Assembly (NCBI GenBank): GCA_001599975.1
Contig: BCIO01000002.1
Span: 2,739,883 to 2,803,882 of the forward strand
Source of the DNA: Cystobasidiopsis lactophilus
Lineage: Eukaryota > Basidiomycota > Agaricostilbomycetes > Agaricostilbales > Chionosphaeraceae
Direction of reading: 5' to 3'
Length of the DNA stretch: 64,000 nucleotides
Shown: positions 5,245 to 27,255 of the stretch, in pieces
Position numbering within the stretch: the stretch's first letter is position 1
Layout: each line of letters begins with the position of its first letter
Made by a program: the position numbers and the translations under genes
Notes under the pieces: generated by a model
Seen by the model: the letters and a program-made list of their open reading frames with translations, nothing else
What the model was told of the DNA's origin: nothing
Database searches by the model: none

Positions 5245-5447
5245 GGCAGATGTGAACTAACCAAGCTCAAAGGGCTGCACGGTTTCGCCCGGTCTCCGTG
5301 CGCTTGTTGCATCGCGCTGAGCCCACGAAATTCTTTTGGAGCCGGTCAAGCACTCCCCCTGCCTTCTTTCGCCTCTATACCTCGTAGGCCCCTCTGTTAG
5401 GACTAACATCGCGTCGTGCTCAGCTGGGAGCAGCAGTTTTTGCAGCG

Positions 5448-7392
5448 ATGGCACCGAACGGCACTCAAATCACGCCCATCAAAGGTCAGCTTGTGCCACG
5501 GTCCGCTTGCGAGCGCACGCTGATTCCCTTGCCGTCACAGTCAAGGCAATTGCTTGCAGTAGGTCGCGCTTGGTTGTGCGCCCAGCAGGAGCGAGGCTCA
5601 TTGATTTGGCTCCTTCCAATTAAGTCGGCGCTGGTGAGTGTTCTGACAGCAGCTCCTGTTTCGCCCTTGTTGCGCATCTCTGACTTTGGACTTGCGAATC
5701 CAGGCTACGTCGGTGGACCAACCTGCACCGTTATCGCGCACAAGTGCCCTCACATCAAGGTCACCATCGTCGACGTGAACCCGGCCAGAATCGCGCAATG
5801 GAACTCGGACAACCTGCCCATCTACGAGCCCGGCTTGGAGGAGATCGTCAAGGCCTGCCGGGGCAAGAACTTGTTCTTCGACACGGACATTGACAAGGCC
5901 ATCAAGGAGGCCGATCTCATCTTCGTTTCCGTCAACACGCCCACCAAGCTGTCTGGCGTCGGCTCCGGAGCTGCTGCTGATCTGAGGTGCGCCTGGCCCA
6001 TCAGGACCTATCTTTGGTGCATTGCTGATCCAGGATGGTCATTCGCACAGCTACGTCGAGCTCTCAACGCGCCGAATCGCCTCTGTGGCGACCTCATCCA
6101 AAATCGTCGTCGAAAAGTCCACCGTGCCCTGCAGGACAGCCGAGTCGATGCGCACCATCCTCGAGGCTAACTCCCAGCCCGGCCTCCGCTTTGACATCCT
6201 TTCCAACCCCGAGTTCTTGGCTGAGGGCACAGCTATCGAAGACTTGCTCGCACCTGACCGCGTCCTCATCGGCTCTCTGCAAAGCCCGGAAGGCAAAGCG
6301 GCTCAGGCTGCCCTTACAGAGGTCTACTGCAACTGGGTGCCGAAAGACAAGGTCATCACCACCGGTCTCTGGAGTTCGGAACTCTCCAAGCTGGTCAGTC
6401 GTCCTTCTCTGCCTCCCCTGAATAAAGCGTTCAAGCTGACTGGCTTGAACGTATTTTTTGTAGGCCGCCAACGCTTTGCTTGCTCAGCGCATTTCTTCCG
6501 TCAACGCCCTTTCAGCCATCTGCGAGGCCACCGGCGCCGACATCGACGAAGTCAGCTACGCCTGCGGCCGGGACTCTCGCTTGGGATCCAAGTTCCTCAA
6601 GGCTTCGGTTGGCTTTGGTGGCTCCTGCTTCCAAAAGGACATTCTCAACCTGGTCTACCTCTCCGAGTCGCTGCACCTGCCCGAAGTCGCCAACTATTGG
6701 CGCTCCGTCACCGATCTCAACGACTACCAAAAGCGCCGCTTCGGCCAGACTGTCGTCAAGAGCCTGTTCAACACCATCCGCGGCAAGCGCATCGCCCTGC
6801 TCGGCTTCGCCTTCAAGAAGAACACAGGCGACACCCGCGCGTCCGCCGCTATCGACATTGCCAAGGGCTTCCGCGATGAGAACGCCCAGATCGCCATCTA
6901 CGACCCCAAGGTCCCCGAGCACCAAATCTGGACCGACCTGACCAACCCCAAGATTGCTGGCGATGTGGAGCAGGGTCAGTCCGATGTATCAGCAGTCGCA
7001 AAGCCCTTTTGGCTAACTGCTCCACTTCCTTCGGATTACAGCGAAGAGCCAAATAACCATCTGCAAGTCGGCGCTGGAGGCCTGCAAGGGTGCTGAGGGT
7101 GTCGTCATTGCCACCGAGTGGTTCGGATCTCTCACTCCTGCTTTCAATGTTATGAGCTTACCAAAGCGCCTTCCGATGCTGACAGGGACGAGTTCAAGAC
7201 TCTGGACTGGCAAGCTGTCTACGACGGCATGCACAAGCCCGCGTTTGTCTTCGATGGCCGCCTCATCCTCGACCAGCCCAAGCTCGAGGCAATTGGCTTC
7301 CGCGTTCACACCATCGGCCGAGGTACGTAGCTGCATTTTGCTTTCACTCCAGTCTCTGATATCGTGTTCCTACTATAGGCAAGGAGGTCTAA
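5448..7392 (+). CDS. UGD1: UDP-glucose 6-dehydrogenase
   Basis: Oxidises UDP-glucose to UDP-glucuronate with NAD+, the entry to UDP-xylose and glucuronate polymers of capsule and wall. Exons: 5448-5484, 5541-5558, 5625-5633, 5704-5986, 6051-6393, 6464-6974, 7042-7120, 7186-7322 and 7379-7392, giving 476 aa, normal for the family. The NAD-binding motif IACIGAGYVGGPT is assembled from exons 2-4, including exons of 18 and 9 nt. Further motifs: [36 protein letters not shown]; the catalytic-cysteine motif [11 protein letters not shown]; and [12 protein letters not shown]. The last codons, GKEV, lie in a 14-nt coding exon. The start is the only ATG that feeds the micro-exon chain in frame. Fungi with this enzyme are mostly basidiomycetes, which supports the lineage guess. 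Confidence 0.95.
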
Positions 7393-24409: not shown

Positions 24410-27255
24410 ATGTCTGCCGAATGTAGGTTTTTGACAGATTCATGCAAAGGGCCTTTTTGCTCAATCCACTCGCCCCCTACAGCCTTCACCTTGTACGTTT
24501 GCCCTGCGCTGCCTTTAGATCTTACGAGGGTCTGACTGCGATATCCGCAACGTACAGCCAGGCTGAGATCACCCAGGTGAGCAGCCCCAGATTCCGGCCT
24601 TTGAACAAGTTTCCAGAAAAATGCTCAACCCGCCTCGCAGCTTCTGGACTTGATCATCAACACTTTCTACTCCAACAAGGAGGTCGCCATCCGTGAAGTG
24701 CGTCCCTTGATCCCTCTATCTAGCCATTGGATAAACTTGGTTAATTGGACGAACACAGTTGATCTCGAACTGCTCGGATGCGCTCGACAAGCTGCGCTAT
24801 GCGTCGCTCACCGACCCCAGCCAGCTCGACACCGGCAAGGACCTCTACATCCGCCTCACCCCCAACAAGGACGGCAAGATCCTCTCCATCCGCGACACCG
24901 GCATTGGCATGACCAAGGCCGACCTCGTCAACAACGTGAGTGGTGCTCCCCCCTACTATCCTTTTGCAAGTAGGATTCGAGCTGAGTTGGTACCCTATTC
25001 ACAGCTCGGTACGATTGCGAAATCCGGCACCAAGGCTTTCATGGAGGCCCTCTCCTCCGGCGCCGACATTTCCATGAGTGCGTGGCGAACCTCACCTTTG
25101 TGCTTTGATTTTCAGAAGTCTAACGATGGGTGCGCGCACAGTCGGCCAGTTCGGTGTCGGCTTCTACTCTGCCTTCTTGATCGCCGACAAGGTGCAGGTC
25201 CGCACCAAGCACAACGACGACGAGCAGTACATCTGGGAGTCGGCCGCCGGCGGCACCTTCACCATCCGCGCCGACGAGGGCGAGCCCCTGGAGCGCGGCA
25301 CCGAGATGCTCCTCCACCTCAAGGACGACCAGCTCGAGTACCTCGAGGAGCGCCGCATCAAGGACATTGTCAAGAAGCACTCCGAGTTCATCTCCTACCC
25401 CATCCAGCTCGTCGTCACCAAGGAGACCGAGAAGGAGGTGCCCGACGAGGACGCCGAGGAGGAGAAGTCCGACTCCAAGATCGAGGAGGTCGACGAGGAG
25501 GCCGAGAAGAAGGTGCGTGGTTGTCAACACCTTTCAGGATGTTGCATACTGACTCATTCCCACAGAAGAAGACCAAGAAGGTCAAGGAGACGACGACCGA
25601 GACCGAGGAGCTCAACAAGACCAAGCCGCTCTGGACGCGCAACCCGCAAGACATCAAGCCGGACGAGTACGCGTCCTTCTACAAGTCGCTCACCAACGAC
25701 TGGGAGGACCACCTGGCCGTCAAGCACTTCTCCGTCGAGGGCCAGCTCGAGTTCAAGGCCATCATCTTCATCCCCAAGCGCGCGCCCTTTGACCTGTTCG
25801 AGACCAAGAAGAAGCGCAACAACATCAAGCTCTACGTCCGCCGCGTCTTCATCATGGACGACTGCGAGGACCTCATCCCCGAGTACCTCAACTTTGTCAA
25901 GGTTTGTCGTCGCTTTTGCCTTGCAGTGCCACCTTCCAAGTCACTCACAAATACTTGAACGCAAACAGGGCATTGTCGACTCGGAGGACCTGCCGCTCAA
26001 CATTTCCCGCGAGACGCTCCAGCAGAACAAGATCTTGAAGGTCATCAAGAAGAACCTGGTCAAGAAGTCGCTCGAGATGATCAGCGAGATCGCCGAGGAC
26101 AAGGACAACTACGCTGTGCGTGTTTCTCCTCACCTCCCCATCATCAGGATGCTGATTGCGCCTTGGGTTGCCGCGCAGAAATTCTACGAGGCCTTCGGCA
26201 AGAACATCAAGCTCGGCATCCACGAGGACTCGACCAACCGGACCAAGCTGGCCGAGTTCCTCCGCTTCAACTCGACCAAGTCGGGCGAGGAGCTCATCTC
26301 CCTCAAGGACTACGTCACCCGCATGCCCGAGATCCAAAAGAACATCTGTGAGTGGCGCATCTCACCCTACTCAACAAGGCCTTTGCTGAGTTAGGCTTGG
26401 TTTCCTCTTGCAGACTACCTCACCGGCGAGAGCCTCAACCAGGTCCGCGACTCGCCCTTCCTCGAGATCTTCAAGAAGAAGGGCTTCGAGGTCCTCCTCA
26501 TGACCGACGCCATCGACGAGTACGCGACCAGCCAGCTCAAGGAGTTCGAGGGCAAGAAGCTCGTGTGCATCTCCAAGGAGGGGCTTGAGCTCGAGGAGAC
26601 GGACGAGGAGAAGGCCAAGAACGAGGCCGACAAGGCCGCCTTCGAGTCGCTCACCAAGGTCATGAAGGACCACCTCGGCGACAAGGTCGAGAAGGTCGTC
26701 ATCTCCCACCTCTTGGCCGAGTCGCCCGCCGTGCTCACCACCGGCCAGTTCGGCTGGTCCTCCAACATGGAGCGCATCATGAAGGCCCAGGCCCTGCGCG
26801 ACTCGAGCATGTCGTCCTACATGCAGTCCAAAAAGACCCTCGAGCTCAACGCCCACCACCCCATCGTCGTCGAGCTCAAGGACAAGGTCACCGAGGACGC
26901 CCAGGACCGCACCGTCCGCGACCTCAGCGTCTTGCTCTACGAGACCGCCCTCCTCACCTCTGGTTTCACCTTGGACCAGCCCCAAAACTTCGCCGACCGC
27001 ATCTACAAGTGAGCCTTCCTTGGCCCCCTTATCTCCTGCGTCGCGTTTTGCTCACCTTCGCGTTCTAGGATGATCTCCCTTGGTCTCGGTCTGTCTGACG
27101 ACTCGCCAGCCGCCGAGGAGGAGGCCGCAGAAGATACCGATATGCCCGCTTTGGAAGAGGCCGGCGCCGCCTCGTCGATGGAGGAGGGTTCGTCGTCTCC
27201 TTCTTGCCCTCGATCTCAACCCAGAACTGACCATGTCCTCACTGCAGTTGACTAA
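24410..27255 (+). CDS. HSP90: Cytosolic HSP90 chaperone
   Basis: ATP-dependent chaperone dimer. Exons: 24410-24422, 24483-24496, 24558-24572, 24641-24697, 24759-24935, 25005-25077, 25142-25512, 25566-25901, 25969-26115, 26179-26347, 26414-27008, 27069-27187 and 27248-27255 (697 aa, normal length). Motifs: [77 protein letters not shown]; the acidic linker; TKPLWTRNP; the NISRETLQQ region; [14 protein letters not shown]; and the C-terminal MEEVD that binds TPR cochaperones. Exons 2 and 3 are only 14 and 15 nt, and the last coding exon 8 nt. MSAESFTLYAEITQ differs from the usual F-x-F-x-AEI by Leu for the second Phe, so the first exons deserve transcript proof. Confidence 0.96.

Follow-up and report, generated by a model that had tools for sequence, protein, structure and literature searches.

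The window analysed here is a stretch of 64,000 nucleotides from the basidiomycete Cystobasidiopsis lactophilus, part of a 22.1-Mb assembly of 8 contigs, and three isolated positions in it (18354, 18368 and 18372) are undetermined (N). Positions 5448 to 7392 of its forward strand hold a gene with nine coding exons of 37, 18, 9, 283, 343, 511, 79, 137 and 14 nt, separated by eight introns of 56-70 nt, all of the GT-AG type, and with a predicted product of 476 amino acids. Residues 12-472 of this product align with human UDP-glucose 6-dehydrogenase (UGDH; PDB 2q3e) at 660.8 bits, and three Pfam domains are recognised, namely the N-terminal NAD-binding domain (PF03721, 203.8 bits), the central domain (PF00984, 99.9 bits) and the C-terminal UDP-binding domain (PF03720, 108 bits), which bears out the identity proposed in the first-pass annotation. 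PF03721 has two matches in the whole genome (three candidates scored), both inside this gene. The alignment with the human protein also places both the GxGxxG NAD motif and the active-site cysteine motif in the product, and the cysteine of the motif in exon 6 is the one that we take to be the active-site residue. Judged by its sequence, the locus is an ordinary nuclear gene for a eukaryotic-type UDP-glucose 6-dehydrogenase, with a predicted role as an enzyme. Its parts are given below, together with an open frame that crosses them.

5448-5484, + strand: coding exon 1, 37 nt; its ATG is in frame with the homologous protein, and it ends in phase 1
5485-5540, + strand: intron 1, 56 nt, GTCAGC...CTGAT...ACAG
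5541-5558, + strand: predicted micro-exon 2, 18 nt, VKAIAC; from the profile path, with its 3' part and frame also given by spliced alignment
5559-5624, + strand: intron 2, 66 nt, GTAGGT...TTGAT...TTAAG, with a weak AAG acceptor
5625-5633, + strand: predicted micro-exon 3, 9 nt, coding for IGA within the NAD-binding motif IGAGYVGG; from the profile path and spliced alignment
5634-5703, + strand: intron 3, 70 nt, GTGAGT...CTGAC...CCAG
5704-5986, + strand: exon 4, 283 nt, starting (G)YVGGPTCTV
5987-6050, + strand: intron 4, 64 nt
6051-6393, + strand: exon 5, 343 nt
6394-6463, + strand: intron 5, 70 nt
6464-6974, + strand: exon 6, 511 nt, bearing the active-site cysteine motif
6975-7041, + strand: intron 6, 67 nt; set at 6979-7048 by the spliced aligner
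7042-7120, + strand: exon 7, 79 nt
7121-7185, + strand: intron 7, 65 nt, donor GTTCGG, required to join TEW to DEFKTLDW
7186-7322, + strand: exon 8, 137 nt
7323-7378, + strand: intron 8, 56 nt, placed by eye beyond the human alignment, which ends at residue 472
7379-7392, + strand: exon 9, 14 nt of coding sequence that completes GKEV and supplies the stop, placed by eye
5388-6167, + strand: unspliced open frame running across introns 1-3

The 12 residues of exon 1 lie outside the human alignment, which starts at residue 12.

Candidate micro-exons and the NAD-binding motif

The sequence IACIGAGYVGGPT is readable solely by way of the exons at 5541-5558 and 5625-5633, which are both coding, shorter than 30 nt and flanked by GT-AG introns; introns 1-3 (56, 66 and 70 nt) are all in phase 1. 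The coordinates, lengths and reading first given for these two exons are exact, and so is the range of 56-70 nt given for the introns around them. By analogy with the Rossmann fold, micro-exon 2 (VKAIAC) would correspond to beta-strand 1.

The need for both exons in the NAD motif, which had been claimed from the letters, was examined with a 9-column profile of the residues preceding YVGGPT, built from 80 bacterial orthologues (the 80 listed of 530 confirmed), in all 80 of which YVGGPT is present. Paths were enumerated with GT-AG introns of 45-120 nt and up to three introns. The observed path reaches 22.0 bits out of a possible 37.4, and the five paths at the locus that lie at most 12 bits from this score all contain 5625-5633. 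Among 8886 AG sites of the window, counted on both strands with the first 430 bases of each excluded, the two at 5703 and 5744 attain the observed score, each by way of these same micro-exons, and three further sites come within 8 bits of it. None of 5000 dinucleotide shuffles attains the score, and one comes within 10 bits. This profile test is the decisive one for the two exons, and it upholds the claim: both are required by the protein sequence as predicted from the DNA. An intron 1 acceptor at 5545 scores equally in the profile but does not keep the frame set by the ATG at 5448 (hand-derived), and an extension of the 9-nt exon to an upstream acceptor runs into an in-frame TAA; both variants were rejected.

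The other comparisons are of varied power. Against the Pfam N-domain, the N-terminal piece of the protein earns 113.7 bits when both micro-exons are present; this drops to 107.1 if the 18-mer is left out, to 99.0 if the 9-mer is, to 101.1 if both are, and to 99.6 if nothing is spliced. A spliced alignment to human UGDH, with introns at a flat cost of 9, takes in the 9-nt and the 18-nt exons, the latter as an open-ended first exon. The splice-site-weighted aligner, with costs taken from 56 training introns, drops both and begins the protein at GYVGG, in a setting where the reference gains just about 10 residues upstream of that point. When the flat cost is raised to 14, the locus itself reaches 392 and the best of 10 shuffles 386, a small margin that makes this a weak test for UGDH.

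Two special origins of this arrangement were also considered. A stwintron, in which introns are nested, was ruled out, since the 18 and 9 nt would have to stay in the mRNA for the NAD motif to be made. Introns 2 and 3 match themselves alone in the genome, in a search that may miss very common words, and an introner origin was discarded for these two because near-identical copies elsewhere in the genome did not appear.

Splice sites, skipping and retention

The first-pass annotation had credited both micro-exons with good donors and acceptors, which is true in part. Introns 1-3 have donors that range from fair to strong (4.9, 5.0 and 9.1 bits, with a training mean of 7.5), and that of the 9-nt exon, CTG|GTGAGT, is strong and ranks in the top 0.6% of GTs. 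The acceptor of the same exon, TTAAG, is weak: its last positions give 0.7 bits, where the training introns average 5.7. Under a longer acceptor model, a rough one in which intron 5 of the gene scores poorly too, this TTAAG is equalled or surpassed by 68.4% of all AGs in the window. The AG is preceded by C in 97, by T in 5 and by A in 3 of the 105 introns of a gene panel described below, a set that excludes UGDH introns 1-3. A CTRAY branch-like motif is present in 42 of these 105 introns, whose median length of 64 nt is close to the 56-70 nt of the UGDH introns. The donor consensus of the 56 training introns is AAG/GTGCGT, with G at +3 in 33 and C at +4 in 33.

Since the lengths of the two micro-exons are multiples of three and the flanking phases are equal, either can be skipped in frame. 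The gene stays in frame when the 18-mer, the 9-mer or both are omitted, but the strand or the glycine loop is lost, and skipping the 9-mer yields ...KAIAC-S-YVGG, without that loop. Retention of intron 1, 2 or 3 singly leads to a stop; when all three are retained, or 1 and 3 together, the frame stays open up to exon 4. The frame of the UGDH start codon stays open when nothing is spliced, so that an automatic gene model might run on across 5388-6167, and the warning that gene finders may go wrong at this N-terminus was justified. The open frame is not remarkable in itself, as 254 of 2000 intron shuffles are equally open.

Very short predicted exons in other genes

Another gene of the window, encoding HSP90, opens with coding exons of 13, 10 and 19 nt (24410-24422, 24483-24492 and 24558-24576). 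They read MSAESFTFQAEITQ (MSAE/SFT/FQAEITQ), where the closest match of this protein, PDB 7k9u, presumably a Cryptococcus protein, has MSTETFGFQAEISQ. This match and the short introns would both agree with a basidiomycete source. The 10- and 19-nt exons are two consecutive micro-exons, like those of UGDH. None of 100 shuffles attains the real HSP90 score (338.3 against a shuffle maximum of 333.7); at a flat cost of 14 the small exons are missed (607, with 610 for the best shuffle).

The wider genome was sampled through a panel of 22 genes, restricted to their N-terminal parts: UGDH, HSP90, three tubulins, actin and 16 small GTPases. The 20 loci besides UGDH and HSP90 were picked from 35 aligned, with duplicates, unaligned and lower-scoring ones omitted, and presumed sequences served as references for the tubulins, actin and small GTPases. 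The weighted aligner places 83 internal exons in the 22 genes, 20 of them of at most 20 nt, UGDH's two not being among these 20. Two 3-nt exons of a Rab1-like gene (L093) were dropped, as shuffles reach the same score. This leaves 18 supported micro-exons of at most 20 nt, plus UGDH's two, spread over 10 of the 22 genes, a rate that is not a genome average, since the 20 loci belong to three families with conserved N-termini. Examples are a Rac/Cdc42-like gene (L097; exons of 18, 9, 27, 12 and 31 nt), a Rab11-like gene (L102; 9, 13, 22 and 5 nt), a Rab5-like gene (L101; 17, 5 and 6 nt among others) and a beta-tubulin gene (L117; 16 and 17 nt).

In nine of the 11 genes tested with the flat cost of 14, the real score lies above that of every one of 10 shuffles, HSP90 and L093 being the exceptions. 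The flat-cost aligner places at least one internal exon of at most 20 nt in 28 of the 110 shuffles: in nine of 10 for L093, seven for L094, six for L117, three each for L101 and L102, and none for the other six genes. The single small exons in L094, L117, L101 and L102 are therefore uncertain, as shuffled sequence yields such exons too. By a hand tally, lengths divisible by three are found in nine of the 20 micro-exons (seven of 18 without UGDH), near the one-third expected by chance, and 11 of the 18 outside UGDH are not multiples of three. On these alignments, micro-exons look like a habit of this genome, in several genes besides UGDH.

Predicted exons of 5-20 nt lie in small-GTPase and beta-tubulin genes at L097, L101, L102, L117, L086, L092, L094 and L114, and in several such genes micro-exons cut the nucleotide-binding loop.

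Interpretation and comparison with known systems

The reading that we favour, with a probability of roughly 0.88, is that two constitutive micro-exons, one of 18 and one of 9 nt, code for the N-terminus of this UDP-glucose dehydrogenase, with its beta-strand 1 and the glycine-rich loop that binds NAD. The spliceosome would pair its sites across each short intron, one intron at a time (intron definition), and exon length would hardly matter because of this pairing. Intron 3, with its strong GTGAGT donor, and intron 2, with its weak AAG acceptor, would probably not be spliced out at the same moment, since two sets of splicing factors could hardly flank a 9-nt exon simultaneously. The short exons would fit a genome with closely spaced introns in several conserved genes. 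From the sequence, the two micro-exons would be expected in the mRNA, probably constitutively, and they may recur in related fungi.

Constitutive splicing has to be weighed against a regulated switch, in which the phase-1 symmetric micro-exons, above all the 9-nt one, would be included or skipped according to conditions, the enzyme thus being on or replaced by an NAD-dead subunit. The skippable lengths and the weak AAG acceptor of the 9-nt exon both agree with such a switch, and a precedent is provided by Trichoderma Xlr2, whose 20-nt micro-exon is reported to be included in a glucose-dependent manner (PMC11121469). However, 11 of the 18 other supported micro-exons would break the frame if skipped, which argues for constitutive use in general, and we consider the switch improbable; condition-dependent inclusion of the UGDH micro-exons is possible but unsupported. 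An extended version of this idea seems just as doubtful: the 9-nt exon would be adjustable, the weak AAG making its inclusion inefficient and a skipped, NAD-dead subunit potentially poisoning the hexamer, and many housekeeping genes of this genome may have chains of 5-20-nt exons in their nucleotide-binding loops.

It is harder still to believe that the real mRNA joins 5484 to 5704, or stays unspliced, and gives a protein without the canonical motif. Both products would remain in frame, and the weighted aligner also started at GYVGG, but the family sequence IACIGAG is found between GT-AG sites whose order and phase are correct, with no equal in the 5000 shuffles or at any other tested place of the window, and loss of the loop should abolish NAD binding, as a UDP-glucose dehydrogenase without the glycine loop of its Rossmann fold should not bind NAD. 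Least credible is an alternative upstream exon providing the motif, an outcome that the first-pass annotation had named as telling against the micro-exons. Within 8 bits of the observed score there is no single-intron path with introns of 45-3000 nt at the locus, and among two-intron paths with introns of 45-1500 nt the micro-exon path stands alone.

Constitutive micro-exons at this locus would make a clear example of how the working N-terminus of a housekeeping enzyme could be lost or replaced in a gene prediction. In 10 of 22 sampled genes an internal exon of at most 20 nt, or more than one, is supported, and the genome would be, if transcripts agree, a good test case for the spliceosome and also for annotation software faced with series of very short exons. 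Such exons are recognised less well in long reads, according to PMC11590231.

No paper on micro-exons in UDP-glucose dehydrogenase was found among the openly licensed papers searched; in PMC3744415, UGD1 occurs in the reference list only. Among genome contigs, all 80 orthologues listed of the 530 confirmed are bacterial, with no fungal one among the matches listed, and a search of viral contigs gave one distant locus. Compared with human UGDH (PDB 2q3e), the predicted protein has the same NAD and cysteine motifs, and only the exon structure of the fungal gene seems unusual.

The nearest parallels come from other fungal gene families. Four bglA genes of basidiomycetous yeasts have 3, 2, 10 and 0 exons below 30 bp, with shortest exons of 18, 5, 6 and 64 bp and introns averaging 59-81 nt (PMC9142197); like UGDH they carry tiny exons amid short introns, but they are beta-glycosidase genes, and the UGDH exons are derived from homology alone. 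The P450 genes of Phanerochaete chrysosporium, with exons encoding 2-10 amino acids and short introns (PMC1184071), share the same architecture in a different gene family, and an 8-nt exon within a conserved P450 motif is cited in PMC12940212. The latter paper describes Fusarium CYP621A, in which a 1-nt exon, reportedly backed by an alignment of 24 sequences and by SRA reads, rebuilds a conserved glycine motif, as the tiny exon of UGDH would do; it carries a similar warning for annotation and differs in the length of 1 nt. In Xlr2 (PMC11121469), as in UGDH, a short exon codes for part of an essential motif, but that exon is 20 nt long and its inclusion is reportedly regulated by glucose. Fungal micro-exons are thus already in print, and UGDH adds a new case of a known kind; across the genome, the micro-exon pattern is a more useful lead than UGDH alone.
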